Below are positions 47,150 to 64,000 of a DNA stretch of 64,000 nucleotides, one piece after another (the first letter of the stretch is position 1; every line of letters begins with the position of its first letter). The DNA is from Novosphingobium percolationis (GTDB lineage Bacteria; Pseudomonadota; Alphaproteobacteria; Sphingomonadales; Sphingomonadaceae). The stretch lies in NCBI RefSeq assembly GCF_020179425.1, contig NZ_JAILYM010000002.1, positions 744,001-808,000 on the forward strand. Reading direction: 5' to 3'. The translations under genes were made by a program, and so were the position numbers. The notes under the pieces are model-generated. The model was not told where the DNA came from. It did not search any database and worked only from the letters and a program-made list of their open reading frames with translations.

Positions 47150-47199
47150 TCATCACCGGCCCGGAAACCCGAATGCTTGTCTTGCAGCTGAAGGGCGCA

Positions 47200-47400: not shown

Positions 47401-47470
47401 GCGCGAAACTCTTGCGCGCACGATTATGGTTCCTAATGTTTCCCTTGTTCAAACGAATGAGGGATTCCAC

Positions 47471-47659
47471 ATGAACACTTCGCTGAACCACCCTGAACCG
47501 CTCGCCTATTCGATCGCCGACGCCGTGCGCGTTTCGGCCATCGGTCGCACCCGCCTTTATGCGCTGATCGGCGAAGGCCGTTTGAAGGCGACGAAGGTGG
47601 GCAAGCGCACGCTGATCCCCGCCGCCAGCCTGAAAGCCCTGATTGCGGGCGAGGCATAA
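47471..47659 (+). CDS. AlpA/excisionase-type DNA-binding protein
   Basis: 62-residue protein made almost entirely of one MerR-like helix-turn-helix: YSIADAVRVSAIGRTRLYAL, then IGEGRLKATKVGKRTLIPAA and a final helix. Such proteins regulate int or replication genes in P4-like satellites or act as excisionases. The ATG at 47471 is used; an open frame extending upstream is not supported. A stem-loop follows its stop. Confidence 0.8.
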   Translation: MNTSLNHPEPLAYSIADAVRVSAIGRTRLYALIGEGRLKATKVGKRTLIPAASLKALIAGEA

Positions 47660-47660
47660 A

Positions 47661-47691
47661 CGAAACCCCGACCTGAGGGGCCGGGGCTTCG
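47661..47691 (+). terminator. Stem-loop after the AlpA-like gene
   Basis: CGAAACCCCG (47661-47670) pairs with CGGGGCTTCG (47682-47691) with one mismatch and an 11-base loop. There is no T tract, so it may only weaken transcription. Confidence 0.4.
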
Positions 47692-47824
47692 AGCGACTTA
47701 GTTGGCGCTTCATCGCTCGAACGTCCTAACCCCGTTTCAGGTCATCCGTAAACATCGAATGTGACGGCACGTGCCCTGCGTCTGCGGGGCCGACCGATCG
47801 CGCTCGCCTTTAGGGCATGACACA

Positions 47825-48001
47825 ATGACGGAGCTTATCCCCAATGCGCACGGCGACCCAGAGGAACCCCGTTCCGAAGCCGCCGTGCCTTCCTCTCACC
47901 CGTTGCCGTATCCGGCGCAATTCCTGATCCTGGCGCACTACGTCCGCCCCGAATGGGCCGCGATGCTGGCGGCGCTCGCTTTCGACGGGGGCGCGCGATG
48001 A
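47825..48001 (+). CDS. Small hypothetical protein before the primase gene
   Basis: 58-residue frame from ATG 47825, Pro- and Glu-rich at the start and ending FLILAHYVRPEWAAMLAALA. Its stop overlaps the primase start codon (ATGA), which supports translation. I do not recognise a family. Confidence 0.45.
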   Translation: MTELIPNAHGDPEEPRSEAAVPSSHPLPYPAQFLILAHYVRPEWAAMLAALAFDGGAR

Positions 48002-48921: not shown

Positions 48922-50455
48922 CCTGCGCGAGCGGGTGGAACAGGCCGAACCCTTTAACCCGTGGCTCGATCCGCTGCCGCTGCGCGATGAACTGCCGCCT
49001 GTGCTGGCGTTCGAACCGAACCTGTTGCCGGGGCAACTGCAAGCCTGGGTGATGGACATTGCCGAACGGATGAACTGCCCCGCCGATCTGGTTGCCATTC
49101 CCGCGATGGTGGCGGCAGGCGCGCTGATCGGGCGCAAGGTGGGCATCCGCCCGCAACGGCGAACCGATTGGCTGGAAGTGGGCAACCTGTGGGGCTGTGT
49201 CATTGCCCCGCCTGGCAGCCTGAAAAGCCCTGCGGCTGCGGAGGCGCTGGCACCGATCCGGCGGCTGGAAGCCAAGGCGGCGAAGGCCAACGAAGCGGCG
49301 CTTGCAGACTTCAAGGCGGCTGAGACCCTGTTCAAGCTGGAAAAGGACAATGCAGCGGGCGCGGCCAAGGCGGCGCTCAAGGACAAGGACAGGGGCAAGG
49401 CTGCGGGACGGGATGCGGCACTCACCATGCTGCGCGCAATTGCGGAGCCTGCCGCCCCGGCGATGAAGCGTTACCTTACCAGCGATGGCACGGCGGAAAA
49501 GCTGGGCGAGATTTGCGCCGACAACCCCGATGGCATCCTGGTGCATCGGGATGAATTGCTTTCGCTGTTCGCCGATCTGGACAACCCGGACAAGGCATCG
49601 GCGCGCGGCTTCTACCTGACGGGCTGGGGCGGGCAGGACGCGTACACGTTCGATCGCATCATGCGTGGCACGGTGCGCATCAAGGCGGTAAACCTGTCGG
49701 TCTGCGGCACGACCCAGCCGAGCCGGATTGCGGGCTATATCCGCGAAAGCCTGCGCAGCTTCGATGACGGCATGGTGCAGCGGTTGCAGTTGCTCGCCTG
49801 GCCGGACTTCGGCGGCGAGTTTCGGGAAGTGGACCGCTACCCGGACAGCGAAGCGCGGGCGGCTGCATTCGAGTGCTATTCGGACCTTGCCAGCATGGAC
49901 GTGCGCGAAATCGGGGCGGTGTGGGAGGAAGCGAGCGGACCCGATGGCGTACCGTACCTGCGCTTTGCCGACGATGCACAGGACGTGTTTTCGGAATGGC
50001 GCATGGGCCTGGAGCAACGCTTGCGCGGCGACGAACTGCCGCCTGCGCAGATGGCTCACTTTGCCAAGTATCGCGGGCTTGTTCCGCGCCTGGCGCTGGT
50101 GTGCCACCTTGCCAACAATGACTTCGGCCCTGTGTCGGCAAAGGCGATCGGGCAGGCGATCGCCTGGGCGCGCTATCTCGAAAGCCATGCGGTGCGCACC
50201 TATTCTTCGCTGGCGATCGACAACGCCGATGCGGCACGCGCAATCTGGCGGCGCATTCGAAAGGGTGATTTGCCCCAGCCGTTCACCGCCCGCGAAATTC
50301 AGCAAAAGGGCTGGTCCGGCCTGACCGACAAGGAACGGGTGAAAGCCGGGCTGGACGCCTTGGCCGATGCTTCCTGGTTGCGGGGCGAAAAGGTGGAAAC
50401 CGGGGGGCGTCCATCCCTTCGCTATCACGTCAATCCGAAGGCGCTGAACGCCTGA
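48899..50455 (+). CDS. DUF3987 (YfjI-type) ATPase
   Basis: 518-residue protein of the DUF3987 family, often found after primases on phages and integrated elements. A P-loop-like GCVIAPPGSLKSP lies at about residue 98, then an Ala/Lys-rich coiled segment, VHRDELLSLFADLDNPDKAS with an acidic Walker-B-like pair, and a C-terminal winged-helix-like tail (FTAREIQQKGWSGL). A helicase-like role in replication is likely but inferred. The GTG at 48899 or the ATG at 48905 could start it. Confidence 0.85.
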   Translation: MLMATNANLRERVEQAEPFNPWLDPLPLRDELPPVLAFEPNLLPGQLQAWVMDIAERMNCPADLVAIPAMVAAGALIGRKVGIRPQRRTDWLEVGNLWGCVIAPPGSLKSPAAAEALAPIRRLEAKAAKANEAALADFKAAETLFKLEKDNAAGAAKAALKDKDRGKAAGRDAALTMLRAIAEPAAPAMKRYLTSDGTAEKLGEICADNPDGILVHRDELLSLFADLDNPDKASARGFYLTGWGGQDAYTFDRIMRGTVRIKAVNLSVCGTTQPSRIAGYIRESLRSFDDGMVQRLQLLAWPDFGGEFREVDRYPDSEARAAAFECYSDLASMDVREIGAVWEEASGPDGVPYLRFADDAQDVFSEWRMGLEQRLRGDELPPAQMAHFAKYRGLVPRLALVCHLANNDFGPVSAKAIGQAIAWARYLESHAVRTYSSLAIDNADAARAIWRRIRKGDLPQPFTAREIQQKGWSGLTDKERVKAGLDALADASWLRGEKVETGGRPSLRYHVNPKALNA

Positions 50456-50550
50456 AATCTGCCCGGCACCTACCTTCAAAACCTACGAAAGACCCTTTTG
50501 CAGGTTTTGGGGGTGCGGGCCGGGCGCATTTCTCCAAATCGAGGTGAAGC

Positions 50551-51225
50551 ATGACGGCACGAAAGACCAAGGCGAATGCGGCGAACGGCAAGCCGATCAA
50601 CCTGACCCGCAAGGAAGGCGAAAGCGATGGCGAGGCCATTGCGCGCAACATTCTCGGGCCGGGCGCTCGCCACGGTGTCACCCATGCGCAGGTGATGCAG
50701 GCGCAAATGGGGAGTCTCGCCAACGCGCCCGACGTGGTGGACTACGCCAAGGCGGTAGAGGGCATTGCCGACAAGGGCGCGGCGGGCGATCTGGACTTTG
50801 CGAGCCGACTGCTTGCGGCGCAGGCGGTAACGCTCGATTCGATGTTCACGGAACTGGCCCGGCGCATGGCGCTCAACATGGGCGAACACCTGCACGCAAC
50901 GGAGATTTACGCGCGCATTGCCCTCAAGGCGCAGGCCAATTCCCGCGCGACGATCGAGGCGCTGGCGAAGCTGCACCAGCCGCGCGAACAGACGGTGCGG
51001 CATGTGCACGTCAATGACGGCGGGCAGGCGGTGATTGCCGATCAATTCCACCATCACCAGCACGACGCACAGGGGGGCACAGGAAATGGACAATCAAGCG
51101 AACAACCCCATGCACAGGGCGCACCTTGCCCCGCGCTGCCATGCCCGAACCCGATCGGGCCAGCCGTGCCGCTCGCCCGCGATCAAGGGCAAGAGCCGGT
51201 GCAGGATGCACGGCGGAAAGGGTAG
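50551..51225 (+). CDS. Conserved hypothetical protein of integrated elements
   Basis: 224-residue protein. A basic, Asn/Lys-rich N-terminus precedes a helical region (DFASRLLAAQAVTLDSMFTE), the motif ANSRATIEALAKLHQPREQT and a His/Gln-rich tail. I recall similar proteins next to primase genes in sphingomonad elements but no function. ATG 50551 is supported by GAGGTG just upstream. Its last 140 bases overlap the start of the next gene in another frame. Confidence 0.65.
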   Translation: MTARKTKANAANGKPINLTRKEGESDGEAIARNILGPGARHGVTHAQVMQAQMGSLANAPDVVDYAKAVEGIADKGAAGDLDFASRLLAAQAVTLDSMFTELARRMALNMGEHLHATEIYARIALKAQANSRATIEALAKLHQPREQTVRHVHVNDGGQAVIADQFHHHQHDAQGGTGNGQSSEQPHAQGAPCPALPCPNPIGPAVPLARDQGQEPVQDARRKG

Positions 51226-51343
51226 CGGTGCGCCCGAGGGCAACCGCAACGCCTGGAAGCATGGCGCGCGATCGGCTGGCACACTGGAGACGCTGGCGCT
51301 TATCCGCTCTCTAGGGCGCTTGCTAGACGACGGCGAGGCATAG
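51086..51343 (+). CDS. HGG-motif phage-type small protein
   Basis: 85-residue protein with CHARTRSGQPCRSPAIKG, CRMHGGKGSGAPEGNRNAWK and a helical C-terminus. The Cys pattern plus HGG...GNxNAxKHG is seen in many phage and element proteins of unknown function. The ATG at 51086 lies inside the end of the preceding gene; an in-frame ATG at 51035 is an alternative start. Confidence 0.65.
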   Translation: MDNQANNPMHRAHLAPRCHARTRSGQPCRSPAIKGKSRCRMHGGKGSGAPEGNRNAWKHGARSAGTLETLALIRSLGRLLDDGEA

Positions 51344-51523
51344 GGCTTTTCGGGAGCCGCACGCGCGGGCGCGCGCGAAGGCCCGAATTGGCATTGCAGG
51401 CCTGCTAGGGGGGGCGGTGCAAATCTCTCACGTGCCGATCGGGAAACCGACGCTTCCCCTTCGATCGAACGCTAACACGGATTTTCCGTCGCGTGGGTGC
51501 ACGCACGATGGCAGGTAGCAACG

Positions 51524-51874
51524 ATGCCCATGCTTACCTTTCTCGCTTCCGCCGCGCTGTGCGCCTCGCCTGCCGTTCATGACGGCGACACGATCCGGTG
51601 CGGGGCCGAGCGCATTCGCATTGCCAATATCGACGCACCCGAACTGCCGGATAGTCCCAAATGCCAAGACTACCGGCGAGCCTATGCTTGGTGTGACTAC
51701 CGCGCTGGCAATCGAGCGCGCATTGCCCTGCAAGGCTTCCTGCGGGGCGGGTCGGTGAAGGTGCAACGCTTGGGGACCGACAAGTATGGCCGGATGCTTG
51801 CCCGCGTGACGGTGAACGGCAAGGATGCAGGCGATTATTTGGTGCGGCTGGGTTTGGCGCGGGAGTGGAGGTAG
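51524..51874 (+). CDS. Thermonuclease-family (SNase-like) exported protein
   Basis: 116-residue protein of the staphylococcal nuclease family. A short leader (MPMLTFLASAALCASPA) is followed by VHDGDTIRCGAERIRIANID and APELP, then GTDKYGRMLARVTV. The Asp, Arg and Glu positions of the calcium/catalytic site look conserved in these motifs. Small proteins of this type are frequent on alphaproteobacterial mobile elements. A longer frame begins at 51497. Confidence 0.8.
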   Translation: MPMLTFLASAALCASPAVHDGDTIRCGAERIRIANIDAPELPDSPKCQDYRRAYAWCDYRAGNRARIALQGFLRGGSVKVQRLGTDKYGRMLARVTVNGKDAGDYLVRLGLAREWR

Positions 51875-51882
51875 GTGGCGGT

Positions 51883-52233
51883 CTACCGAAGGCGTGAGAC
51901 GGCACGCTTCCATTCCCGTTCATCCGGCCACGGCAATTCAAAGTCACCCTGTTTCCATGGCACCAATTCCAGCCGATCGGGTCTGACCTTCCGCTTGTGC
52001 TGCGATCCGCATACGCGGCACCAGAAATGCGCCCGAGCGGCGGACAACTGATCGTCCCAACCCCTGCGGTGGAAGTGCCACCATAAGCCATGCGCTTCGA
52101 ATCGGGCCGAATGTCCGCATCGGCATACCGGCATGAGCGAGCGTTGAAACGTGGCCGCTTCCAGTATGCACGTTGGCACCATGATGCCATCGGTTGACCA
52201 TCGCACGTCACAGGATCGTTGCAGCCGCTTCAC
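51883..52233 (-). CDS. Small zinc-ribbon-like protein
   Basis: Up to 116 residues. The C-terminal 83 residues show MPVCRCGHSARF, FWCRVCGSQHKRK and DERKRAVSRLR-like DEREWKRAVSRLR; the two Cys pairs could bind zinc. I recall similar short proteins in sphingomonad genomes without a known role. The start may be 52233, 52182 or 52134. It follows the DUF6771-like gene on the same strand with a possible overlap. Confidence 0.6.
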   Translation of the reverse strand: MKRLQRSCDVRWSTDGIMVPTCILEAATFQRSLMPVCRCGHSARFEAHGLWWHFHRRGWDDQLSAARAHFWCRVCGSQHKRKVRPDRLELVPWKQGDFELPWPDEREWKRAVSRLR

Positions 52234-52408
52234 CTGGAGCGGAAAACGGCTCTGCGTGGTTCAGGATAGCGCGGGCCAATTCTAACGCTGCATCCTCGCG
52301 CATCCATGGGGTTGGGTCTGAAATGCCGACCCGTGCCCAACCGGGCGCTGTCAGCAGGGCTTCGGCAATCTGCCGCTCTTCGATTCGTGTCACAATCAAT
52401 TGGAACAT
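52208..52408 (-). CDS. DUF6771-like small protein
   Basis: 66-residue frame from 52408: MFQLIVTRIEERQIAEALLT then APGWARVGISDPTPWMRE and DAALELARAIL. The pattern PxWARVGLTxPxxxLRExAAxELA is one I associate with the DUF6771 family of sphingomonads. It is divergent from the SRAP gene and overlaps the zinc-ribbon-like gene downstream. Confidence 0.55.
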   Translation of the reverse strand: MFQLIVTRIEERQIAEALLTAPGWARVGISDPTPWMREDAALELARAILNHAEPFSAPGEAAATIL

Positions 52409-52481
52409 TAAGGGAACAAAACTGCAAGGGGCAGAATGCTCACTGTTGACTCTCCATGGCCATAGGCGGACGCTTCGCCCC

Positions 52482-53099
52482 ATGTGCAACCTCTACCGCA
52501 TGAAAGCCTCTGCGCAGGAAGTGGGCCATTTGTTTGGCGCGGTTCCGGTCGAAGGGGCGAACGTGGGGACCGAGGTTTACCCCGGCTATCCGGGCTTTGT
52601 GGTTGCTGGCGGGCAGGTTCGCCGCATGACGTGGGGCTTCCCGCTGGCGCTAAAGGGCAAGCAAGGCCAACCCCTCAAACCCAAGCCGGTGAACAACGCG
52701 CGCGAGGACAAGTTGCGCACCTCGTTTTGGCGGGACAGTTTCGAGCGCAGGCGCTGCCTTATTCCTGTAAGTGCGTGGGCCGAGGCCGAGGGCGAAAAGG
52801 GCCGCATGACCCGCACATGGTATTCGCTGCCCGGAGAGGAATTGTTTGCTGTGGCAGGGCTATGGAGGCCCACCGCTGAATGGGGCGATGCCTATTCGAT
52901 GGTTATGGTCGAAGGCTGCCCCAGCATGGCAGATGTTCACGACCGAATGCCGGTTGTGCTTGCAGGCGAGGACCGCGCGCGGTGGTTGAACGGCGATCCG
53001 ATTGAAGCATTCGCCCTATGCCGGACTTGGGCGAATCCGCTGGCGGTGGACCGCACGCAAGACCGCTGGGCAAGCCGCACGGCCAACGTGGTTCGGTGA
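52482..53099 (+). CDS. SOS-response-associated peptidase-like protein (SRAP, YedK/HMCES family)
   Basis: 205-residue protein that in this family forms a covalent link to abasic sites in single-stranded DNA. The catalytic cysteine is residue 2 (MCNLYRMK), which fixes the start at 52482. Other conserved residues are the asparagine in NNAREDKLR, glutamate in CLIPVSAWAEAE and histidine in HDRMPVVL. Its presence on an element with its own primase fits protection of replicating single-stranded DNA. It is the last gene before the right att copy. Confidence 0.9.
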   Translation: MCNLYRMKASAQEVGHLFGAVPVEGANVGTEVYPGYPGFVVAGGQVRRMTWGFPLALKGKQGQPLKPKPVNNAREDKLRTSFWRDSFERRRCLIPVSAWAEAEGEKGRMTRTWYSLPGEELFAVAGLWRPTAEWGDAYSMVMVEGCPSMADVHDRMPVVLAGEDRARWLNGDPIEAFALCRTWANPLAVDRTQDRWASRTANVVR

Positions 53100-53135
53100 C
53101 GTTCAGCGCCGCTTATTGCCGAGATATTACCGAAA
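53097..53135 (+). promoter_or_regulatory. Right-arm motifs shared with the left end of element 1
   Basis: TGACGTTCAGC (53097-53107) is the reverse complement of 42239-42249. ATATTACCGAAA (53124-53135) repeats 42317-42328. Both lie within 90 bases of the right att copy. Confidence 0.4.
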
Positions 53136-53182
53136 CAGGCTGATTGCAGCGAGTGAAGTCGGCATAAGTCACTGATTTATAA

Positions 53183-53226
53183 TGGTGACCCCTACGGGAA
53201 TCGAACCCGTGTTTCAGCCGTGAGAG
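53183..53226 (-). repeat. Attachment site copy 2: second tRNA-Glu 3' part, junction of two elements
   Basis: Identical over 44 bp to 42177-42220 (anticodon loop to CCA). The bases to the right do not form the 5' half of a tRNA: the anticodon-stem partner would be AGGCA, which does not pair with GGCTG. So this copy is also an internal junction and a complete tRNA should lie further right, outside the window. Integrase 2 starts 146 bases downstream. Confidence 0.85.
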
Positions 53227-53372
53227 TGCCTGGAATATTCACTTTTCAGCCCTTGAGAAAATCCACATAAATCCTTATTTTTCTGATGGTTGGTGCGAAA
53301 TTTTCCGCATCAGTCCATGTCCGTGCGTACGTGTTTATTCGACGTATAATAGACAAGTTTTGCGGTGAGATC

Positions 53373-54722
53373 ATGTCCAAAACACTCGTCGACCAACCCT
53401 TGACCACCCGAGAAGCCAGGAAGCGATTGGCCGCAGGCATGTACTGGCGGAGCATCGATGTCGAAGTCCATCTGGGATACCGCAAAGCCAAACGAGGTGG
53501 AATGTGGATTGCGCGCTGGCGAGTGGACAAGAGATATCGTCAGGCCGTCCTCGGGCCGGCAGATGATGCCATTGAGGTTGGCACGCTCGATTATCGTGCA
53601 GCGGTCAAGCAGGCCCTTGAGACCGTCGGAACCGCGCGTATTGCCGTCAGGGCGCTGGCTGATGGCCCAGCCCTGACTGTACGTCTGGCTGTTGAGGCGT
53701 ACATTGCGGTCAGAAATGCGAGGGATAGTCGCAGGGTAGGTCGAGAGACTCGCTCTGACTCGGCTCGGCGATTGGAAAAGTACGTCATTGGCCGCGAAAA
53801 ATTGCGCAAAGGTGAGGCGGTTGTCGCCTCTCCATTGGCACGTGTTGCCTTGCACGAACTCACTGAGGCCAACCTTAGAGATTGGCGGATCAGTTTACCA
53901 AACAGCCTCAAGGCCACGGCCAAGCAGCGGCTCACGAGTGACCTGAAGGCCGCACTGAATGCTGCGTGCGAGCAACATCGTGCCCGCGTGCCCGCAGGTT
54001 TGCCAGGCATCATCAAGCTGGGGTTACGGGCGGAACTGGCCGATGAAGATGACGCGGTCCCACTCGCGCGCGAAAATCAAATTCTCTCGGACAGTCAGGT
54101 CAGCAGTCTTGTTCAGGCCGCGCGACAGCTTGACGCAGAGCAAGGCTGGGAGGGCGACCTTTTTCGCTTGATAGTCGTCATGGCGGCGACGGGAGCGAGA
54201 TTCTCTCAGGTAGCGAGATTACGTGTTGTCGATGTCCAGACTGGAGCTGGTCGCTTGATGGTTCCGCCAAGCAGAAAGGGGAGGGGCGTGAAATCCGGGC
54301 ACACACCGGTGCCGGTCGGAAAGGATGTGCTCGACACGCTCATGCCTATTTTGTCGGGGCGGCCCAAGGCTGCAATTCTCTTCGAGCGTTGGCGGTATGA
54401 GCAACAATCAGGCAGTATCCGATGGAGGAAGGCCGCCCGTGGTGCATGGCAGACACCGAGCGAGATTGTGCGGCCGTGGGGCGAAATACGAAAACGCACC
54501 GGCTTACCGGACGTTGTCCCATACGCTTTGCGCCATTCCTCCATCGTCCGAGGAATTCGGGCAAACCTGCCATTGCGGTTGGTCGCAGCAATCCATGATA
54601 CGAGTGTCGTAATGATTGAGCGGCATTACGCCCGCTATATTGCCGACGGGCTTGATGCGCTGGCCGCTAAGGCTGTGGTCCCATTGTTGGCTACCGACGA
54701 GACAACCCTCCAAGCCCGCTAA
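53373..54722 (+). CDS. int: Tyrosine site-specific integrase (element 2)
   Basis: 449-residue integrase unlike integrase 1 in sequence. Catalytic residues appear in AATGARFSQVARLRV (first Arg), PYALRHSSIVRGIR (His/Arg) and MIERHYARYIADG (Tyr). The box between them, IHDTSVVMIERHY, is shorter than in integrase 1. ATG 53373 with GGTGAG upstream is preferred to the in-frame ATG at 53286. A strong terminator follows, so it is transcribed alone. Confidence 0.9.
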   Translation: MSKTLVDQPLTTREARKRLAAGMYWRSIDVEVHLGYRKAKRGGMWIARWRVDKRYRQAVLGPADDAIEVGTLDYRAAVKQALETVGTARIAVRALADGPALTVRLAVEAYIAVRNARDSRRVGRETRSDSARRLEKYVIGREKLRKGEAVVASPLARVALHELTEANLRDWRISLPNSLKATAKQRLTSDLKAALNAACEQHRARVPAGLPGIIKLGLRAELADEDDAVPLARENQILSDSQVSSLVQAARQLDAEQGWEGDLFRLIVVMAATGARFSQVARLRVVDVQTGAGRLMVPPSRKGRGVKSGHTPVPVGKDVLDTLMPILSGRPKAAILFERWRYEQQSGSIRWRKAARGAWQTPSEIVRPWGEIRKRTGLPDVVPYALRHSSIVRGIRANLPLRLVAAIHDTSVVMIERHYARYIADGLDALAAKAVVPLLATDETTLQAR

Positions 54723-54955: not shown

Positions 54956-55360
54956 CTATTCTGCCCGAATCCTGCCTTTCATGCGGCTGGCCTGGGCGCG
55001 CCAACGTGCGGAATTCTGGGCGGTCCAGCGCTCGCCGGCAACCTCCTCCAGTGTCTCGACGAGGATGTCTAGCGCGTCGTCAAATACAGACTCCGAAATA
55101 TCGCCGTAGCTGTGATGTTTCGCGACCATTGCGTCTATTGCTTCCAGCGCCCATGGATCGTTCACTTCCAGTGCCGCGAGATATTCGATCATCTCGTTGA
55201 CCATGGCACCTTGTGTTGCCTGTGGACGATTGAAGCTGTCGCGATGCTCGGGATGGGCCGCGAAGAAGCGTTCGAAGAATATCGGTGTGATGTCGATGTC
55301 GGTTTCGGCGACTGCATCCAGCGAGGCGAGGAGCGTGGAAGGGGTCGCCGACATCGTCAT
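54956..55360 (-). CDS. Globin-like protein coupled to a P450 ferredoxin
   Basis: 134-residue protein with a single-domain globin pattern: [34 protein letters not shown] (CD region), a helix ending in [13 protein letters not shown], whose histidine sits where the proximal heme ligand is expected, and a final helix [14 protein letters not shown]. Its ATG overlaps the ferredoxin stop (ATGA), so the two are translationally coupled. A link between a globin and a P450 redox chain could mean oxygen delivery or nitric oxide removal; neither is shown by the sequence. The fold assignment is by pattern. Confidence 0.7.
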
Positions 55361-55668
55361 TCTTCCGGAGCGATGCGGACGATCAGACCATCATGCTCGT
55401 CCGCCAGGATGACTTGGCAGGAAAGGCGCGATTGGTCTGTGCGATGTCCTGATGAATCCAGCAGGTCATTTTCGTCTTCCGAGAAGGCCTTGGCCACGCC
55501 CGCGTCTTCCACGTACACGTGGCATGTCGCGCAGGAACAGCAGCCCCCACAAAGGGCCAGTAACTGGTCGAAGCCGCGATCGCGGATTGCCTCCATCAAT
55601 GAAAGGCCCGCTTCGGCCGAGATGGTGGTGGCGACGTCCTGTCGGTCGACAATGGTGAGCGAAATCAT
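55357..55668 (-). CDS. [2Fe-2S] ferredoxin, adrenodoxin/putidaredoxin type
   Basis: 103-residue electron carrier. Cluster ligands follow C-x5-C-x2-C ([10 protein letters not shown]) with a fourth cysteine in RLSCQVIL about 35 residues later. [17 protein letters not shown] is the acidic recognition region typical of P450 ferredoxins. The start at 55668 is chosen for length; the frame is open further upstream without similarity. It lies 104 bases downstream of the P450 gene, so it is the likely electron donor. No ferredoxin reductase gene is in the window. Confidence 0.9.
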
Positions 55669-55772
55669 GGAGTAATAACTTTCACGTTCCGTCGGCGCGG
55701 CACGCTGACGGCCCTGTTGTGGAATTGGAGGGGGCGATGACGGAGGCCCACTAGCGAGCCTCCGCCAACCGG

Positions 55773-56996
55773 TTAGCCAACGTCCCAGCGCAGGACGAAC
55801 GGCTCGCACCCTCCGACGATGCCGCCGCGATGCCGTAGTGTCTGGCCGGGTTCCAGTTCGAAGCGCGGGATGCGCGCGAACCATTCCTCCAGCAGCACCT
55901 TCATTTCCATGCGTGCAAGGAACTGGCCGGGGCAGGTGTGATTGCCGCTGCCGAATGCCATGTGATTGCGTACCTTGCGATCGAGATCGTACTTGAGCGG
56001 ATCGGCGTTCATTTCGGGGTTGAGCGCATACAGCTCGGTCGGCGCGACGATCATGTCGCCCCGTGCCAGCGTGACGCCGTCGACTTCAACGTCGGCCACC
56101 ACTTCGCGGGCGGAAGAAACCAGCGGCAGGCGCCGCAGGCATTCGTTGATCGCCGCATGGTGCAGATCATGGTTGGCGGCAAGGCGGGCCTGGACCTCGG
56201 GTGCCTGTGCCAGCAGCCGCATCGTGAAGCTCATGAAGTTCACGACCGTGTCCAGTCCACCGACCAGCACCTGTATGGCCAGGCGCGCGGCTTCGCTTTC
56301 TGTCATCGGGCGGCCGTTCACTTCGCTGGTGGCGATGTGGGTCAGCAGGTCGTTACCACCCTTGGCCTTCCGCTCCTCGATGATCGGATGGACGTAGGCC
56401 TTGAAAGCTTCGGTCGCTTGCGCTGGGGTGATGCTGCCATCTGGACGCGTGAACTGGTCGGCCAGATGCTTCAACTTGGGCAGGTGCTCTACCGGAAGAT
56501 CGACCAACTGCATGAACACGCGCAGCGGCAGTTCTTCGGCGAATTCATGCACGAAGTCGCAGCGGCCGTTGGCGACGAAACTTTCAATCAGGTCGACCGT
56601 CAGCTTGCGCACCTTCGGCTCAAGCGGGTGGATAGCCGACCCGTAGAGTTTGTCGTTCAGCACCTTGCGGAAAGGGCGGTGTTCTGGCGGATCGAGCGAG
56701 AGGGGAATGAAGTCGCCGTAGGCCTCGCCCGCGGTGCTCTTGGGCACCAGCACGACTCGGCTGGAAAACCGCGTGGCGTCTGAATAGACTTGGTTGATGA
56801 GATCGGGCGACAGCGCAATCCAGTGGCCCTCGTTATAAGGCGTCCAGACGACCTCGTGCGGCGTGGAATCCCGAAGCTGGGTCCATGCGACGTGCAGGTC
56901 GTGCTGACCATGGAACGGATTGTAGATATCGAAATCCACGATCCGGTCCTGCGGCACCCCGGCTGGTGGCCGGGCGAGCGTTGCGGCTTCGGACAT
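55773..56996 (-). CDS. Cytochrome P450, CYP101-like
   Basis: 407-residue soluble P450. The heme loop is [10 protein letters not shown] with the cysteine ligand, the I-helix is [14 protein letters not shown], and the ExxR motif is NECLRRL, where the usual Glu-x-x-Arg reads ECLR. The I-helix and the end ([19 protein letters not shown]) follow P450cam closely, so it belongs near CYP101 enzymes that hydroxylate camphor-like terpenoids. The substrate here is unknown. ATG 56996 lies one base from the stop of the flavin monooxygenase gene, and the ferredoxin gene is next. Confidence 0.9.
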
Positions 56997-56997
56997 G

Positions 56998-58089
56998 TCA
57001 GACCTCCGACTTCGCAACGGCGCCCGACGGCAGCTTCGGCGCGATTTCCTGCGCCAGACGACGCATCGATTCGTTCCAGGGCGTGGGATTGTCGATGTAG
57101 TCGTAGCTGTAGAGCAACAGGGTACCGAACCCGCCGCCAAGGCCGTCGAACCACTTTTCGAACTTCTCCTGTACCGTTTCAGGCGAGCCGACTATCCAGA
57201 AGTGATCGGCGAGGAATTCGGGCGTCACGTCCGAAACCGAAAGACCGGTGCCTTCGGTCATGGCTTCGGCAATGCCAAAGGCATGATAGGTTGGCAGCAG
57301 GTATTCCTTCCAAGCGCGGCCCATGCCTCCTTCCAGCGCCAGCTTGCGGGCTTCGGCGTCGGTATCGGCAATGAACACGTCACGCACCACGCGGTGCATC
57401 GCGCGATTGCCGGGGCGGCCGGCGTCGGCAGCGGACTTGGCGTAGATGTCAAAGTGGTCGATAAGGGCCGAGTTGCTCGAAAACACCGAGCAGGGCGAAT
57501 AGCCATGCGCGCCGGCATAGCGGATCGACGGCGAATTGGGGCTGAGGCCGGTCATGGCCATCGGCATCGAGCCGCCCCACGGCTTCTGATCTCGCACAGG
57601 GTGGGCGGCATCGCCTTCCGGAAGGCCGGCGTTCCAGAATTCACCTTCATAATCGAAGGCTTCACCCTTCCACACCATTTCCATGATCTTGACCGATTCC
57701 GTCATCATCCGGTGGTTCTTGGAAAGATCCTTGAGTCCGCGAAGACGCGCGTCGCCCGGATAGGCGCCCGGTGCCACGCCCATCTGGTAACGGCCCTTGA
57801 GGATGTGGCTGAGCCAGGCGGCCTGTGCGGCCAGCGTGGCCGGGTGGTAGTAGGGCAGAAGGTGTGCCAGCGGACCGAGCTTGATGCGTTCGGTCTGGCG
57901 CGCTGCGGCGGCGATAACCAGCTCAGGATTGGGGATAGCTTCCCAGTTCAGGGTGATGTGCTCACCAATCCAGTATTCGCTGAAGCCCACCTGATCGGCG
58001 GTGACCGCTTGTGCGACGGCCCAGTCGAACACTTCCGACGGGGTGCGCTCGGGCGGGAGGAACGGGGTCTGAAACATACCGACTTCCAT
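56998..58089 (-). CDS. LLM-class flavin-dependent monooxygenase
   Basis: 363-residue luciferase-like monooxygenase that would use reduced FMN and oxygen. Family features are FSEYWIGEHITLNWEAIPNP, IKLGPLAHLLPYYHPA and GRYQMGVAPGAYPGD, with the usual C-terminal VGSPETVQEKFEKW. A flavin reductase gene is not adjacent. Such enzymes include Baeyer-Villiger-type ketone oxygenases of terpene pathways, which would suit a P450 partner. It is first in the unit LLM-P450-ferredoxin-globin and divergent from a TetR gene. Confidence 0.87.
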   Translation of the reverse strand: MEVGMFQTPFLPPERTPSEVFDWAVAQAVTADQVGFSEYWIGEHITLNWEAIPNPELVIAAAARQTERIKLGPLAHLLPYYHPATLAAQAAWLSHILKGRYQMGVAPGAYPGDARLRGLKDLSKNHRMMTESVKIMEMVWKGEAFDYEGEFWNAGLPEGDAAHPVRDQKPWGGSMPMAMTGLSPNSPSIRYAGAHGYSPCSVFSSNSALIDHFDIYAKSAADAGRPGNRAMHRVVRDVFIADTDAEARKLALEGGMGRAWKEYLLPTYHAFGIAEAMTEGTGLSVSDVTPEFLADHFWIVGSPETVQEKFEKWFDGLGGGFGTLLLYSYDYIDNPTPWNESMRRLAQEIAPKLPSGAVAKSEV

Positions 58090-58132
58090 GGCATCTCACT
58101 CCATTTTTGCGTTTCTGTGGTGGCCGTGAATT

Positions 58133-58220
58133 ATTACACGTGTGCGATTTGTAGCTTGATCCTGGTCAATAATCTACCATTTTTCGAAAAAGATTCGGCA
58201 AAAAATAGCACGGGTGTGAT
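58133..58220. promoter_or_regulatory. Paired operator-like motifs between the LLM and TetR genes
   Basis: ATTACACGTGTGC (58133-58145, containing the palindrome ACACGTGT) and, on the opposite strand, ATCACACCCGTGC (from 58220 leftwards) match at 10 of 13 positions. They flank an AT-rich region in the 170-base divergent gap. Binding by the adjacent TetR protein at both is a natural hypothesis. Confidence 0.5.
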
Positions 58221-58259
58221 AGGAATTGACATCTCTGGCGGTCGTCCTACTCGGAGGAC

Positions 58260-58922
58260 ATGGCATCCACGATCGTCCGATCCAGAAAAACCAAGCCCTT
58301 GGCGAGTGGTACGCGCGAACGCCTCATCCTTGAGGCGGAAACGCTGTTCGGTGAACGCGGCATCGATGGCGTGACCATGCGCATGATATGCGAGGCTGCA
58401 GACCAGAAGTTTGCGGGCTCGGTGCAGTACCATTTCGGCGACCAGCTCGGCTTGCTTTACGCCGTGTTCGAATACCGCGAGGATCAGCTTCAGCCCCAGC
58501 GCAAGGCGTTGCTGGATGAGGGGCGCAAGACGGGGCAGCTGGACAATGTGCGCTACTTGCTGCGCATTCTGTTCGAACCGAATTTTCGCATGTACGAAGA
58601 CCACGGCGTCATTTCCTACATGCGCTGCCATGCGGCCTATCTGGCGACACACCGCCCGCGCGGCGTCGACCACCCGGTCGACCGCGACAGTCCGGCAACG
58701 CAGATTCTGCGCGAGGCGATGCTGCTGCTTGAAAAACGGTTGTCTGCAATGGGGCCGCAGCTTGCGGCGTTTCGTCTGGAATGCGTGGGAGCGATGTTCC
58801 TGCAGGGGATGACGCAGTATGCGTCCGGTCCGGGGCACTCGGGCATGACGCCGCGGCAGTTCTTCGATGACATGCTCGATATGATGACGCATGCCATCTC
58901 CGTCCTGCCGCGTCCTCGTTAG
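58260..58922 (+). CDS. TetR-family transcriptional regulator
   Basis: 220-residue repressor. The N-terminal helix-turn-helix includes TRERLILEAETLFGERGIDG, VTMRMICEAAD and GSVQYHFGDQLGLLYAVFEY, which fit TetR DNA-binding domains well. The C-terminal ligand domain is of the type with VRYLLRILFEP and CHAAYLATHR. It is divergent from the LLM-P450 unit and probably controls it. Its stop overlaps the convergent SDR stop by three bases. Confidence 0.88.
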   Translation: MASTIVRSRKTKPLASGTRERLILEAETLFGERGIDGVTMRMICEAADQKFAGSVQYHFGDQLGLLYAVFEYREDQLQPQRKALLDEGRKTGQLDNVRYLLRILFEPNFRMYEDHGVISYMRCHAAYLATHRPRGVDHPVDRDSPATQILREAMLLLEKRLSAMGPQLAAFRLECVGAMFLQGMTQYASGPGHSGMTPRQFFDDMLDMMTHAISVLPRPR

Positions 58923-59866
58923 GCAGCGCCAAACAGTTTTGGGATCAACTCGAGTTCGTCGCCGGTCCAGTTGATGTCGAGATAGTTGCCCAACGACCTG
59001 ATCCTTTCGGCGTGATCGCGCAGGTCTTCGGGTGCATGGTGCGGATCGAACCAGCCTTCGCCCACAACGAAGCCAACGCGGGCCACCTTGCCCGATGAAC
59101 TGCTGAAGATTTCGCCGTTGATCGCGGTGGAACGGTGCGCCAGCCACAGTACCGTCGGTGCTACCGCTTCCGGCGGCCCCATAGGAACCCGGCCCGCGCG
59201 AATGTCCTCGCGCCAGTCTTCGCCTTCGGCTTCCTTGCCACCGAAAAAGGCATCGCGGTTCATGCGCGTGACCGCCATGGGCGCGACAGCGTTGACTGTG
59301 ATGCCGGTCTCCCCCGCTTCCTGCGCCAGGCACTTGGTCAAACCCGCCACGCCCAGCTTGGCTGCGCCATAATGCGCCAGCGTCTCGTTGCCTCCAAAGC
59401 CTGCGTTAGAGGTCGTATTGACGATGCGTCCGTACCCTTGCGCCGCCATGTGCGGCCACACAGCGCGGCACATGAAAAACGCGCCGTCCAGCGTGACCGA
59501 CTGCATGGTGCGCCACGCTTCGTCGGTCAGGCTGCTCAGTGGCGCAAAGCTGATGATTCCCGCGTTATTGATCAGCACCGTGACCTTGCCAAACGCGGCG
59601 ATGCCGGCTGCGATAACTGCTTCTGCGCCACCCGGTTCTGTGATCGAATGGGTGTCGGCTACGGCTCGTCCGCCGGCTGCCTTGATTTCGGCCACAACGC
59701 GTTTCGCGACAGGCGTTACGGTGCCGCTGCCATCGGCTGCCGTCCCGATATCGTTGACCACCACCGCGGCACCTCGCGCGGCGAAGGCGAGCGCATATTC
59801 GCGCCCCAGCCCGCGCCCCGCGCCGGTGATGACAACGACGTCATCGTCGAATCGCATCTCAGCCAT
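58919..59866 (-). CDS. Short-chain dehydrogenase, MFE-2-like
   Basis: 315-residue NAD(P)-dependent SDR. The Rossmann motif is TGAGRGLGREYA, the NNAG motif is LINNAGI, the catalytic serine is in NTTSNAGFGG and the catalytic Tyr-Lys is AHYGAAKLG. It is about 60 residues longer than classical SDRs; the first part (GRGLGREYALAFAARGAAVV) and C-terminal extension resemble the dehydrogenase domain of multifunctional enzyme type 2, which acts on 3-hydroxyacyl-CoA. That fits the thiolase gene just upstream. The start at 59866 was chosen for similarity. Confidence 0.87.
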   Translation of the reverse strand: MAEMRFDDDVVVITGAGRGLGREYALAFAARGAAVVVNDIGTAADGSGTVTPVAKRVVAEIKAAGGRAVADTHSITEPGGAEAVIAAGIAAFGKVTVLINNAGIISFAPLSSLTDEAWRTMQSVTLDGAFFMCRAVWPHMAAQGYGRIVNTTSNAGFGGNETLAHYGAAKLGVAGLTKCLAQEAGETGITVNAVAPMAVTRMNRDAFFGGKEAEGEDWREDIRAGRVPMGPPEAVAPTVLWLAHRSTAINGEIFSSSSGKVARVGFVVGEGWFDPHHAPEDLRDHAERIRSLGNYLDINWTGDELELIPKLFGAA

Positions 59867-59877
59867 GACGCTCGCCC

Positions 59878-61083
59878 TCAGACCGGGATTTCGAATAGCC
59901 CGGCCGACCCCATGCCGCCGGCGACGCACATGGAAACCACCGCATAGCGTGCTCCGCGCCGACGCGCTTCGATCAGAGCGTGTCCGGTAAGGCGGCTGCC
60001 TGTCATGCCGAAGGGGTGGCCGATGGCGATGCCGCCGCCATTCACGTTGAGCCTCGCCGGATCGATGCCCAGCTTGTCGCGGCAATACAGCGCCTGGCTG
60101 GCAAAGGCTTCGTTGATTTCCCACAGTCCGATGTCGTCGACCGAAAGACCCGCGCGTTCCAGCAGCTTGGGAATGGCAAAGACCGGGCCAATGCCCATTT
60201 CCTCGGGCGCGCAGCCGACCGACTGGAAGCCCCGGAAGAGGCCGAGGATCGGCAGTCCCTCGCGCTCGGCGGTGGCGCGGTCCATCAGCACCTGGGCAGA
60301 GGCCCCATCGGACAGTTGGCTGGCGTTGCCAGCGGTCACGAACTTGCCTTCCTTGACGATCTGCCCGTCCTTCCACACCGGCTTCAGTTTTGCGAGGCCT
60401 TCCAACGTGGTGTCGGCACGGATTCCCTCGTCGCTGGTGAGTGTAACGGTTTCCGAGCCCGAGACCGTGCCGTCCTTTTCGATGATGTTCTTTTCGACGG
60501 TGATGGGCGCGATTTCGTCTGTCAGGCGGCCCTCGCGGGTCGCGGCGGCGGCGCGCACGTGGCTTTCGACTGAGAATTCGTCCTGCGCCTCACGCGAGAT
60601 GCCATAGCGTTCGGCGACGATCTCTGCTGTCTCGATCATGGCCATGTAGGCGTGGGGAGCGCCTGCCAGCACTTCGGCCGGCTGCGCGCGGTATGTCGGC
60701 GTATGGGCATTACGGGTGTGGGTGATCGATTCCGCACCGCCAGCAAGACCTGCTTCGATGTCGCCTGCGATGATCGCGCGGGCGATGTAGGCCAGCGTGG
60801 TGAGCCCCGATCCGCACTTGCGATCCAGCGTGGTGCCGGGGATCGAGAGCGGCAGGCCCGCCGCGAAGATCGCGGTGCGCGCAAGGTTGGACCCTTGCGT
60901 GCCCCATTGGGTGCCAACGCCGATAGCGGCATCCTCGATCCGCGCGGGGTCGATCCCGGCGCGTTCGATTGCGGCGTTCATCACGTGTGCGGTCATGCGG
61001 GGGGCATCGGTGTTGTTGAACGCGCCCTTGAAGGCGCGGGCGACGCCGGTGCGGGCGGTGGAAACAATAACAGCTTCACGCAT
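59878..61083 (-). CDS. Acetyl-CoA acyltransferase (thiolase)
   Basis: 401-residue thiolase of the degradative type. The acylated cysteine is in DRKCGSGLT, the catalytic histidine in GGIAIGHPFGMTG and the second cysteine in SMCVAGGMGSAG. MREAVIVSTARTGVAR is a standard N-terminus, so ATG 61083 is preferred to 61107. Its start overlaps the hydrolase stop by 8 bases. It would split off acetyl-CoA or a longer acyl-CoA in the proposed breakdown pathway. Confidence 0.92.
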   Translation of the reverse strand: MREAVIVSTARTGVARAFKGAFNNTDAPRMTAHVMNAAIERAGIDPARIEDAAIGVGTQWGTQGSNLARTAIFAAGLPLSIPGTTLDRKCGSGLTTLAYIARAIIAGDIEAGLAGGAESITHTRNAHTPTYRAQPAEVLAGAPHAYMAMIETAEIVAERYGISREAQDEFSVESHVRAAAATREGRLTDEIAPITVEKNIIEKDGTVSGSETVTLTSDEGIRADTTLEGLAKLKPVWKDGQIVKEGKFVTAGNASQLSDGASAQVLMDRATAEREGLPILGLFRGFQSVGCAPEEMGIGPVFAIPKLLERAGLSVDDIGLWEINEAFASQALYCRDKLGIDPARLNVNGGGIAIGHPFGMTGSRLTGHALIEARRRGARYAVVSMCVAGGMGSAGLFEIPV

Positions 61084-61969
61084 TCTGAAATGTCCTGCGG
61101 TTTTCATGGAGAAAGGCGAGCGCTTCGCTCACGAAACGCTCGTGGAATTCGTGGTGGAGCCAGTGGCTGCCGCCGGCGAAATGGCTGATCGCGTGGTTCT
61201 TCAGATGCGCGAGTCGCGCCGGACCGGGGAGGGGCACCCAGCTTGCATCGCCATAGGCAAGCAGGACAGGGCAGGCCACGGCGTCGAGAAGCTGATCGAG
61301 ATCGGTTCCGTGCTGATCTTCAGGGGCTCGGCGTTTCACGCGGGGATCGAACTTCCAACGCCAGCCTTTGCCGAGGTCGAACGCCACGGCATGACGGGCA
61401 AGCTCGCCGATGATTTCCGGCGAAAGCGTGGGTTGTTCGCGCTGCATGCGGGCGCTGGCGTCGTCGACCGTGGCATAGTGGCGCATATCACGTCCTGCGG
61501 CAGCCTGCCGGCGTTCGATCCATTGCCGCAAACGCACAGGGTAAGGCGTCGGCTGAGCGGCTTCGTCGCGCTGAATTGGCAACTCGATGCACTCGATCCC
61601 GATGAAGACCTTGACCTGATCCGGGTAGGCCGATGCAACCCTCAGCCCGATGGCGCCGCCAAGCGAATGACCGATAATCGCATAGCGCTTCAGCGCGAGT
61701 GCCTCGGCGATGTCAGCAATATCGGCAACATAGGCGGACAAGGCATAGCCATCGGAATCAGCCCAATCGCTGTCGCCGTGTCCGCGCAGGTCAGGAACGA
61801 TCACGCGGTATTCCGCTGCCAGCGCGTGGGCAACGCGATCCCAGCTACGGCTGTGATCGCGCATGCCGTGGATCAGGATGACCGCCGGCGCGCTTTCTTC
61901 CCCCCACGTCGTGACGTTGAGGCGGCGGCCATCGATAAAAACAGTGTGGCTGGATGGCGATCCGCTCAT
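61076..61969 (-). CDS. Alpha/beta hydrolase
   Basis: 297-residue serine hydrolase. The nucleophile elbow is GHSLGG, the oxyanion region is LIHGMRDHSRSWD, the acid is probably the aspartate in LAYGDASW and the histidine is in GGSHWLHHE. Such enzymes open lactones, esters or C-C bonds of ring-cleavage products. It lies in a tight unit between the acyl-CoA ligase (ATGA overlap) and the thiolase. Confidence 0.86.
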   Translation of the reverse strand: MSGSPSSHTVFIDGRRLNVTTWGEESAPAVILIHGMRDHSRSWDRVAHALAAEYRVIVPDLRGHGDSDWADSDGYALSAYVADIADIAEALALKRYAIIGHSLGGAIGLRVASAYPDQVKVFIGIECIELPIQRDEAAQPTPYPVRLRQWIERRQAAAGRDMRHYATVDDASARMQREQPTLSPEIIGELARHAVAFDLGKGWRWKFDPRVKRRAPEDQHGTDLDQLLDAVACPVLLAYGDASWVPLPGPARLAHLKNHAISHFAGGSHWLHHEFHERFVSEALAFLHENRRTFQNA

Positions 61970-63537
61970 GCGACGGCCGGCGTGGCGAGGCGGGCGCGCA
62001 ACGCCCGTCGCAGGATCTTGCCCGTGGGCCCCTTGGGCAATTCGTCGAGAAGATGGATTGCACAGGGGCGCTTGTAGCTGGCCAGCAAGATTTCGCAGCT
62101 TGCATTGATGGCACTTGGGCTGACCGATGCTCCCGGCTGCAGCGCGACGAAGGCGACAGGCACTTCGCCAAGTACTTCATCGGCCTGTGCCACCACGGCG
62201 ACTTCCGCCACGCCGTCAATCGCGTAAATCGCTTCTTCGATGTCGGCAGGATAAATGTTCTGCCCACCCCGGATGATGACGTCCTTCTTTCGGTCGACGA
62301 TGTACGCGTAGCCATCCTCGTCAATATACCCGATATCGCCGGTACGGAGCCATCCGTCCTGGAGTGCCTGGGCCGTATCTTGCGGGGCGTTGAAGTACCC
62401 GGCCATGACATTCGGTCCCCGTACGACCAACTCGCCGGTAGCCCCGGCGGGCAAGGTCGCGCCCGCATCGTCCATTACGGCAAGATCGATGCCCGGGAGA
62501 ACGCGTCCGATGGTTCGTCCGTGGGTGAGTTCCCCCCGTCCATCGCAAGTCACCTCATGCAGGGTCACCAGCGCGGCGCCTTCCGTCAGGCCATAGCCCG
62601 TCAAAATTCGGGCATCGGCGCTGGTCGCGGTCAGGACCCTTTGCAACAGCGGTGCCGGAACCGGTGCACCGCCGGTCATGATCAGCCGCAGGGTGTGCAG
62701 CCCGCCTTGCCGCAGACCGGGAAAATCGACGATCTTCTGGAGCATCGTTGGCACAGCGGGCATGAATGTGCAGCCGGAACGCTGGATGGCGTCGATGCAC
62801 TTTCCCGCGTCGAAGCGTGGCAGCAGGATTAGCCTTGCACCGCTGACCAGCATGGCATTGATGCACTGATTTAGGCCGAACGTGTTATATAGCGGCAAGG
62901 CGCACAGGATGACGTCTTCAGACGTCAAGCCGAGCCAACCCGGTGTCGCATCATAGTTGGCGGCAAGGTTGGCTGCCGTCAGCATCACGCCCTTCGATTT
63001 GCCCGTTGTGGCGCTGGTGTTCAGCAGCATGGCAATGTCAGTGGCAGCAACCGGCTGTGCATCCAGAACCGGTTCCGCTCCAGCGACCGCAGCATCGAGT
63101 GACGAGAACCCTGCGCTATCCTCTGTCGTGCCGCACAGGATAGCGCTGCGCAGAGAGTTTGCCGAATTTCGGACAGATTGCGGCAGCCGGTCGCTCAGGT
63201 CGGCATGCAGCACCACATATTCCAGCGAGCAGCTTTCGATGGCGTGGGCCAATTCTCCCGGGCGATAGTAGATATTGAGCGGCGAGATCGTTGCGCCCAC
63301 CAAGTGCAATGCCTGCTGGACCACGATGAACTGCGGCTCGGCCGGCATCATCACGCCAACGCGTGAACCATGGCCCACACCCAGTGCCCGCAATCCGCCT
63401 GCTGTCGCGCGGACCATGTCCGCCAGCTCGGCAAAGCTGATGCGTCGCTTGCCATATTCGATGGCGATGCGATTGCCGCCGCTCCGGGCTTGTGACAGCA
63501 AGTGCTTCGCCCGGTTATATTCAGTCTCTCTCGTCAT
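61966..63537 (-). CDS. Acyl-CoA synthetase (AMP-forming)
   Basis: 523-residue ANL-family ligase that activates a carboxylic acid with ATP and CoA. The phosphate loop reads LNTSATTGKSKGVML; the usual TSGTTG is altered at its start. Other motifs are ILTGYGLTEGAA, the hinge GWLRTGDIGYIDEDGYAYIV and DRKKDVIIRGGQNIYP, and the C-terminal lysine in KGPTGKILRR. The start at 63537 overlaps the amidohydrolase gene end by 17 bases. It would feed ring-opened acids into the SDR and thiolase steps. Confidence 0.9.
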   Translation of the reverse strand: MTRETEYNRAKHLLSQARSGGNRIAIEYGKRRISFAELADMVRATAGGLRALGVGHGSRVGVMMPAEPQFIVVQQALHLVGATISPLNIYYRPGELAHAIESCSLEYVVLHADLSDRLPQSVRNSANSLRSAILCGTTEDSAGFSSLDAAVAGAEPVLDAQPVAATDIAMLLNTSATTGKSKGVMLTAANLAANYDATPGWLGLTSEDVILCALPLYNTFGLNQCINAMLVSGARLILLPRFDAGKCIDAIQRSGCTFMPAVPTMLQKIVDFPGLRQGGLHTLRLIMTGGAPVPAPLLQRVLTATSADARILTGYGLTEGAALVTLHEVTCDGRGELTHGRTIGRVLPGIDLAVMDDAGATLPAGATGELVVRGPNVMAGYFNAPQDTAQALQDGWLRTGDIGYIDEDGYAYIVDRKKDVIIRGGQNIYPADIEEAIYAIDGVAEVAVVAQADEVLGEVPVAFVALQPGASVSPSAINASCEILLASYKRPCAIHLLDELPKGPTGKILRRALRARLATPAVA

Positions 63538-64000
63538 GTGACACCGTTGCATGCTTTTGATTGGTGAGATCGGAGATCCGGTAAAAACGAGCAGCCGTTC
63601 CAGAAAACAGCTCGCCACGTTCATCCGGCGACGCCGATGAGGTCAGCCGCTTGAAGGCGTTCCAAAGCGCGCGGTACGTATACATGGCCTTGTCGACCGG
63701 GAAATTGCTCTCGAACATGCAGCGCCGCGCGCCAAACAGCTCGATGCAGGTTTCGACATAAGGCCGCCAGGCTTCGGCTAGGACGTCCGAAGCGGGCGGG
63801 CGAGCTGCCTCGTGCCAACGGGCACCGCATACGATCATGCCGAATCCGCCGATCTTCACGGACACGTTGTCGCGCCGCGCCAGTTCGGCAATGTCCTTGC
63901 GCCACTGCGCCAGCAGTTCAGCTTCGCGGCCTTCATAAAGGCCTACGCCAAGAATGCAGCCGATATGGTCGAGCACGATCGGCAGGCCGGGCATGGCGTC
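63521..64000 (-). CDS. Amidohydrolase-family protein, truncated by the window edge
   Basis: The C-terminal 159 residues of a metal-dependent TIM-barrel hydrolase of the amidohydrolase 2 family. PIVLDHIGC is the family strand with a metal or catalytic aspartate-histidine, followed by VSVKIGGFGMI and MFESNFPVDKA near the end. The N-terminus lies beyond position 64000. Relatives include lactonases and decarboxylases of ring-cleavage pathways. Confidence 0.8.
   Translation of the reverse strand, partial: DAMPGLPIVLDHIGCILGVGLYEGREAELLAQWRKDIAELARRDNVSVKIGGFGMIVCGARWHEAARPPASDVLAEAWRPYVETCIELFGARRCMFESNFPVDKAMYTYRALWNAFKRLTSSASPDERGELFSGTAARFYRISDLTNQKHATVSHDERD

Follow-up and report, generated by a model that had tools for sequence, protein, structure and literature searches.

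In Novosphingobium percolationis, a gene for a single-domain globin lies directly behind a ferredoxin gene in a cytochrome P450 (P450) operon, and this ferredoxin–globin arrangement recurs with different oxygenases in sphingomonads, more often than expected by chance. The operon is located in a stretch of 64,000 nucleotides (nt) of contig NZ_JAILYM010000002.1 (positions 744,001 to 808,000; assembly GCF_020179425.1), hereafter called the window, and is transcribed from the minus strand in the order LLM flavin oxygenase, P450, ferredoxin and globin (Table 1). Pfam profiles confirm the initial annotation of these four genes, in position as well as in family. It is fairly probable that the globin is an accessory of the oxygenase system at all; that its job there is to supply oxygen (O2) to the oxygenase is a possibility that we rate somewhat short of even.

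Recurrence of the ferredoxin–globin arrangement

Gene neighbourhoods have been compared in 87 fetched regions (29 from the family sample, 20 from the genus, two from named genomes, 35 from the class, and the window), which contain 89 globin genes after genomes that the named scan had found again were dropped; the gene calls are our own and rough. A P450 or a Rieske oxygenase alpha subunit is encoded within two genes of 24 of the 89 globins, compared with 23 of the 592 genes that lie in these regions at least four genes from any globin, and within one gene of 12 of 89 and 8 of 592, respectively. Since the rows are related, no p-value is given. The cases within two genes split into 7/29 in the family, 10/20 in the genus, 1/1 in the window, 2/2 in the named genomes and 4/37 in the class. 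The number of P450 matches per genome varies from 3 to 29 (12 genomes counted; one gene can yield two matches). On a quickly built tree of 87 globins plus an outgroup, in which 35 of 85 inner branches are unresolved and for which a somewhat better tree was found later, the P450 label changes nine times, at least four of these changes being forced by supported branches, and the Rieske label changes once. Two of the 89 globins were omitted from the tree because their matched part is shorter than 90 residues.

The initial annotation had suggested a search for the ferredoxin–globin pair in other genomes, and five more have been found (G436, G519, G049, G420 and G559), excluding a pair unique to this strain. 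In G049, G420 and G559, the order is P450, ferredoxin and globin, with P450s 24–30% identical to that of the window; the P450 adjoining the ferredoxin in G559 is nearest to P450cin, and both G420 and G559 carry a second P450 and a Rieske alpha/beta pair upstream (the pair Pfam-scanned in G420 only). In G538, the globin is followed by a P450 and by a reductase with a Fer2 domain of its own. A CYP108/P450terp-like P450 comes after the globin in another genus, within 1.5 kb in 6 of the 7 genomes seen. A Rieske alpha gene is found within two genes of the globin in Croceicoccus hydrothermalis, a Porphyrobacter bin and six further genomes, and the Pfam-scanned loci L034 and L108 have Rieske alpha and beta, a ferredoxin reductase and, on the opposite strand, a small ferredoxin. 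Outside the family, a Rieske oxygenase gene of G679, missed by the neighbour count, ends 1 base before the globin start, its VanA-like part being just below the cut-off. Many of the linked loci also encode a suitable electron carrier, but none is encoded beside the CYP108-like P450s. These neighbours point to a redox partnership of the globin. An apparent globin–reductase fusion in L142 is rejected, as it consists of two separate neighbouring genes. Tandem globin gene pairs occur in other alphaproteobacteria (L166, G677:C2; L178, G696:C18; L266, G1336:C82).

The initial annotation also proposed translational coupling through an ATGA overlap. This overlap, formed by the ferredoxin stop and the first globin ATG, is present in the window. 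A second in-frame ATG at 55354, 2 nt past the ferredoxin stop, has a better placed GGAAG (read by eye) and agrees better with the ortholog starts. The junction is +10 nt in G436, +1 in G519, −1 in G049 and −8 in G420 and G559, so that it ranges from −8 to +10 nt over six ferredoxin–globin loci with two distinct kinds of P450. Since the ortholog junctions are +10 and +1 nt, the exact overlap is not a conserved trait; close coupling is supported, and judged from these junctions translational coupling is likely in several of the six loci.

Relatives of the globin are found in 29 of 397 genomes of the family, 22 of 195 of the genus, 40 of 385 of the class, 37 of 246 of the order and 41 of 349 of the phylum; the samples overlap, the window genome is counted in each, thresholds differ, and a profile was used for class, order and phylum. 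Regions were fetched for 20 of 22 non-window matches in the genus and 35 of 52 listed non-window matches in the class. A putidaredoxin-type ferredoxin is encoded in 190 of the 195 genus genomes (E 1e-12), and a globin lies within 1.5 kb of only 3 of the 30 best ferredoxin loci; therefore, the ferredoxin–globin pair is rare, and the ferredoxin type is rejected as a predictor of the globin. The named genomes give no globin match in a single-protein scan and 11 loci in a profile scan, the cluster being present only in Novosphingobium piscinae. In 72,556 plasmid records, no globin is matched at E 1e-3 with either the window globin or the L104 globin as query, and P450s are found in 15 plasmids at E 1e-60 with a best identity of 45%; a plasmid-borne trait is rejected.

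The whole cluster, from the acyl-CoA ligase to the globin, is present in N. piscinae KCTC 42194 (G436) and in G519, where the identity to the window is 87–88% for the P450, 90–91% for the LLM oxygenase, 72–73% for the ferredoxin and 45–46% for the globin. A fourth cluster, in G403 (L185), has the TetR, LLM, P450 (86% identical) and ferredoxin genes in place. The TetR gene keeps its position in the other three clusters and is 84–86% identical, partly on clipped stretches. The next eight P450 loci (≤61% identity) have no ferredoxin or globin match within 1.5 kb. Among the cluster globins, the ratio of non-synonymous to synonymous substitution rates (dN/dS) is about 0.24 and 0.28 for two pairs, as rough values with dS of 1.8–2.1, and the third pair is saturated; the globin, which evolves faster than its neighbours, seems to be under constraint. 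A better tree is obtained when the three cluster globins are held as one clade.

Identity of the globin

The protein encoded at 54956–55360 is, on profile evidence, a genuine single-domain M-type globin. It scores 27.4 bits against the Pfam Globin profile (PF00042), which is modest but above the cut-off of 22, and some relatives fall below this cut-off, for example L043 (18.6 bits) and L108 (15.0 bits). A profile of 24 relatives retrieves bacterial globins and flavohaemoglobins from the PDB at E 1e-13 to 1e-11. The structure predicted from 12 sequences has the globin helix order (pLDDT 87.2, pTM 0.83). A Foldseek search with this model gives globins in the first 38 rows at probability 1.00, with a best E of 5e-3 and so no match at E ≤0.001; among the 50 rows, three phycobiliprotein chains rank below them. 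The best VIA-align match is PA3967 of Pseudomonas aeruginosa (1tu9), with a Z of 14.1 and a root-mean-square deviation of 2.4 over 124 residues, followed by Hell's Gate globin I (3s1i; 13.9), a flavohaemoglobin (13.6) and VHb (13.0), the listed VIA-align rows being globins. Since these Z values are near the range about which the tool warns for helical proteins, the assignment rests on the sequence evidence. PA3967 and Hell's Gate globin I are likewise single-domain bacterial globins, but are only 21% and 16% identical to the window protein, and the title of 1tu9 names no function. The initial annotation had named a contrary profile search or structure prediction as what would refute the globin; profile, model and pocket residues agree, and profile, model and fold matches exclude a protein of another kind.

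The proximal His82 (F8) is conserved in all 87 aligned globins and Phe43 (CD1) in 85 of 87, the window protein having both, and Trp120 is also conserved. The window globin very likely binds haem. By alignment, not coordinates, Phe29, Gln50 and Val54 of the window protein occupy positions B10, E7 and E11 of the distal pocket. Elephant myoglobin, a reversible O2 binder, has the same trio of Phe B10, Gln E7 and Val E11. Position E7 is variable in the family (Gln, Cys, Arg, Ser, Ala and others). A methionine haem ligand at E7, suggested by one pairwise alignment, has been dropped, as later alignments place Gln50 at E7 and Met53 at E10. A methionine at E10 is found in 71 of 87 family members. In the Porphyrobacter bin globin beside a Rieske dioxygenase (L112:396-824), CD1 is Leu instead of Phe.

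The window protein shares the globin domain, at a weak sequence match, with flavohaemoglobins (Hmp), but at 134 amino acids (aa) it is a globin only, lacking the fused C-terminal FAD/NAD reductase domain, and is excluded from this class. In agreement with this, it scores 26.7 bits against the model of nitric oxide (NO)-inducible flavohemoproteins, whose cut-off is 432, and the Tyr B10 and Gln E7 pattern of flavohaemoglobins is found only at E7 (Gln50), B10 being Phe29. Nor does it group with the nitrate-cluster type represented by Bjgb of Bradyrhizobium: it belongs to a clade of 69 rows (SH-aLRT 99) that is separate from L164 and L165, on a tree from which Bjgb itself is absent. L164 (G938) and L165 (G602) are globin relatives inside nitrate-assimilation-like clusters, as is the case for Bjgb (identified partly by eye).

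Possible roles of the globin

Class I P450 systems such as P450cam with putidaredoxin, P450cin, P450terp with terpredoxin, and sphingomonad CYP101 resemble the window operon in joining a P450 to a putidaredoxin-type ferredoxin, with a camphor-type LLM oxygenase, in a catabolic unit, but the window operon has a globin after the ferredoxin and no reductase among the genes scanned in the unit. The initial annotation knew of no described P450 system with this arrangement, and none has been found in the literature searched. The neighbours of the globin, together with precedent, make it plausible that it deals with O2 or NO, or that the ferredoxin reduces it. The globin could join a class I P450 system as a fourth, optional component in a catabolic operon for a bicyclic-terpene-like substrate. 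The divergent TetR gene, whose position is observed, would control its co-expression with the oxygenases; the operon ferredoxin, as its adjacency suggests, would hold the globin haem as Fe(II); and the ferrous globin would bind O2 reversibly in the Phe B10/Gln E7 pocket and hand it over to the oxygenase when O2 becomes scarce. If globins of related bacteria did likewise for Rieske dioxygenases, this would account for the association of the globin family with varied ferredoxin-dependent oxygenases. DNT dioxygenase, an enzyme of the Rieske type, provides a precedent. VHb added in vitro is reported to raise the activity of DNT dioxygenase 2.7-fold, and this enzyme is listed among the partners of VHb (PMC3962134). 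VHb is a single-domain bacterial globin like that of the window, but it has Tyr instead of Phe at B10 and was paired with a foreign enzyme, whereas the window globin is natively encoded with an oxygenase. Should the globin indeed work with the oxygenase, P450 and Rieske systems would have a natural accessory haemoglobin, possibly a part for better P450 or dioxygenase biocatalysis at low O2. It would also provide a native test bed for the hand-over of O2 from a globin to an oxygenase, which has been argued from VHb added to a foreign enzyme (PMC3962134).

In the main alternative to O2 supply, the globin would be a ferredoxin-fed NO dioxygenase: by converting NO and O2 to nitrate it would protect the haem of the P450 and the [2Fe-2S] cluster, with the ferredoxin feeding both P450 and globin. 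A Bradyrhizobium system, encoded by narK-bjgb-flp-nasC, is close to this: it also combines a single-domain globin with a redox protein proposed to feed the main enzyme too, the flavoprotein Flp being the proposed donor of both NasC and the globin Bjgb, and mutants in either bjgb or flp are sensitive to NO (PMC4724949). Nanomolar NO is listed as inhibiting P450s, and ferredoxin reductases are named as likely electron donors to single-domain globins (PMC3820574). The relatives of the window globin in the nitrate-type clusters L164 and L165 (gene identities partly by eye) also favour this function, but they branch outside the supported clade of the window globin, and Bjgb serves nitrate assimilation. 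Tyr B10 is central to the NO dioxygenase activity of flavohaemoglobins. The supply of O2 is preferred over the removal of NO on three grounds: the operons use up O2 but, unlike nitrate reduction, are not known as a source of NO; the window globin has no Tyr B10; and another globin is encoded in the genome beside an Rrf2-family regulator. This second single-domain globin (G000:C37:252197-252640; L062:6198-6641) is divergent from the regulator gene and near a DoxX gene, and may already cover NO defence. A role of the window globin as NO dioxygenase is considered unlikely. The globin may instead serve as a redox valve or peroxide sink, accepting surplus ferredoxin electrons or removing H2O2 from the uncoupled P450. 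Uncoupling is a general problem of P450s, and the ferredoxin and oxygenase neighbours fit this function as they fit O2 supply, but no peroxidase-like residue pattern has been noticed and E7 varies across the family, leaving it the least likely of the functions weighed here.

Several observations weigh against a working partnership with the oxygenase, and three of them favour an ordinary sphingomonad globin that settled downstream of the ferredoxin and has been retained as a bystander: 65 of the 89 globins have no P450 or Rieske gene within two genes; the closest relative of the window globin (54% identical) has no such neighbour and lies near tat-like genes (by eye); and the near-orthologous cluster of G403 lacks the globin. 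The G403 genome has no match to the window globin anywhere at E 1e-5. In addition, no other gene of the cluster is as poorly conserved as the globin, which is less identical than the P450 by the values given above, and O2 needs no carrier to diffuse within a bacterial cell unless the globin docks on its oxygenase. Beyond the family, the link to oxygenases is weak. The four class cases come from three loci, and each P450 there is encoded on the strand opposite to the globin. Of 29 loci in the order sample, 6 have a P450 within 1.5 kb; all belong to the genus with the CYP108-like P450s, and five of them were counted before. Of 21 further phylum loci (L253–L273), 20 show neither a P450 nor a Rieske match within 1.5 kb, and the remaining one, of the flavohaemoglobin type, has a partial P450 match that runs to the stretch edge. 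Phe B10, present in 20 of 24 oxygenase-linked and 25 of 63 other globins, is rejected as a mark of the link, with only four supported independent pairs and no significance; it follows the clades, and an association with the link is not demonstrable. Against a bystander stand the repeated settling of globins beside different P450s and Rieske oxygenases at junctions of −8 to +10 nt, the presence of the globin in three of four near-orthologous clusters, and the better tree with the three cluster globins as one clade. We regard a bystander as rather unlikely, at a probability between those of NO removal and the redox valve. The proposal of the initial annotation that the globin is an oxygen-handling or NO-protecting partner is partly supported, since the ATGA overlap that is not conserved, the cluster without globin and the second globin weigh on it. 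A broader reading is that sphingomonads have several times evolved a dedicated haemoglobin for ferredoxin-dependent P450 or Rieske oxygenases, charged by the shared ferredoxin and delivering O2. This we hold to be doubtful, about as probable as NO removal; if true, it would be the natural form of the engineered pairing of VHb with an oxygenase.

Operon, pathway and flanking sequences

The gap between the LLM and P450 genes is 1 nt and that between the P450 and ferredoxin genes is 104 nt. Hence the tight packing described in the initial annotation holds for the four-gene unit, though its spacing is uneven.

Table 1. Features of the globin operon and of the adjoining genes in the window
Feature	Position	Strand	Details
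LLM flavin oxygenase, 3,6-diketocamphane 1,6-monooxygenase-like	56998..58089	-	363 aa; Bac_luciferase and 4uwm
Cytochrome P450, CYP101J2-like	55773..56996	-	407 aa; p450 profile and 5kyo
[2Fe-2S] ferredoxin, putidaredoxin/terpredoxin type	55357..55668	-	103 aa; Fer2; C-x5-C-x2-C...C read directly
Globin, single-domain M-type	54956..55360	-	134 aa, or 132 aa from the second ATG at 55354
LLM–TetR intergenic region with conserved blocks	58090..58259	.	four-cluster alignment
TetR-family regulator, divergent	58260..58922	+	220 aa; TetR_N 24.5 bits, cut-off 24
Short-chain dehydrogenase, start not fixed	58919..59869	-	adh_short 130 bits on fragment; neighbour retained in G436 and G519
Thiolase	59878..61107	-	Thiolase_N and Thiolase_C; neighbour retained in G436 and G519
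Alpha/beta hydrolase	61076..61969	-	Abhydrolase_1; neighbour retained in G436 and G519
Acyl-CoA ligase (AMP-binding)	61966..63624	-	AMP-binding 274 bits; retained in G436 and G519, clipped by stretch ends

The window P450 scores 94 bits against the Pfam p450 profile (cut-off 22.8), and its best solved relative is CYP101J2 (5kyo, E 1e-141), with P450cam at about 1e-109, in agreement with a CYP101 relationship. The LLM protein scores 155 bits against Bac_luciferase (cut-off 27.9), with 3,6-diketocamphane 1,6-monooxygenase (4uwm, E 2e-97) as its best solved relative. The ferredoxin scores 31 bits against Fer2 (cut-off 21), its best solved relative being 3lxf (E 1e-34) and terpredoxin the next; by these matches it is of the right type for electron transfer to a class I P450. 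No ferredoxin reductase is found among the genes scanned in the unit; no dedicated search was made, and the reductase is presumed to be encoded elsewhere. Bicyclic monoterpenes are broken down through hydroxylation by a P450, dehydrogenation, Baeyer–Villiger oxidation by an LLM enzyme, ring opening, CoA activation and thiolysis. Judged from the families, the gene set of the window presumably fits this logic.

In the LLM–TetR intergenic region, blocks around TATnAC..TGTGCTA and ACACGTGTAATAA are conserved in the alignment of the four clusters, and by eye the two blocks resemble facing copies of one operator. The window copy of this region contains no inverted repeat of at least 8, and an operator palindrome is rejected for it. 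On the other side of the operon, the stretch 42347–54722 is flanked by tyrosine recombinase-like open reading frames at 42347–43630 and 53286–54722 with a primase-like one between them (by eye), and it ends about 230 bp from the globin stop.

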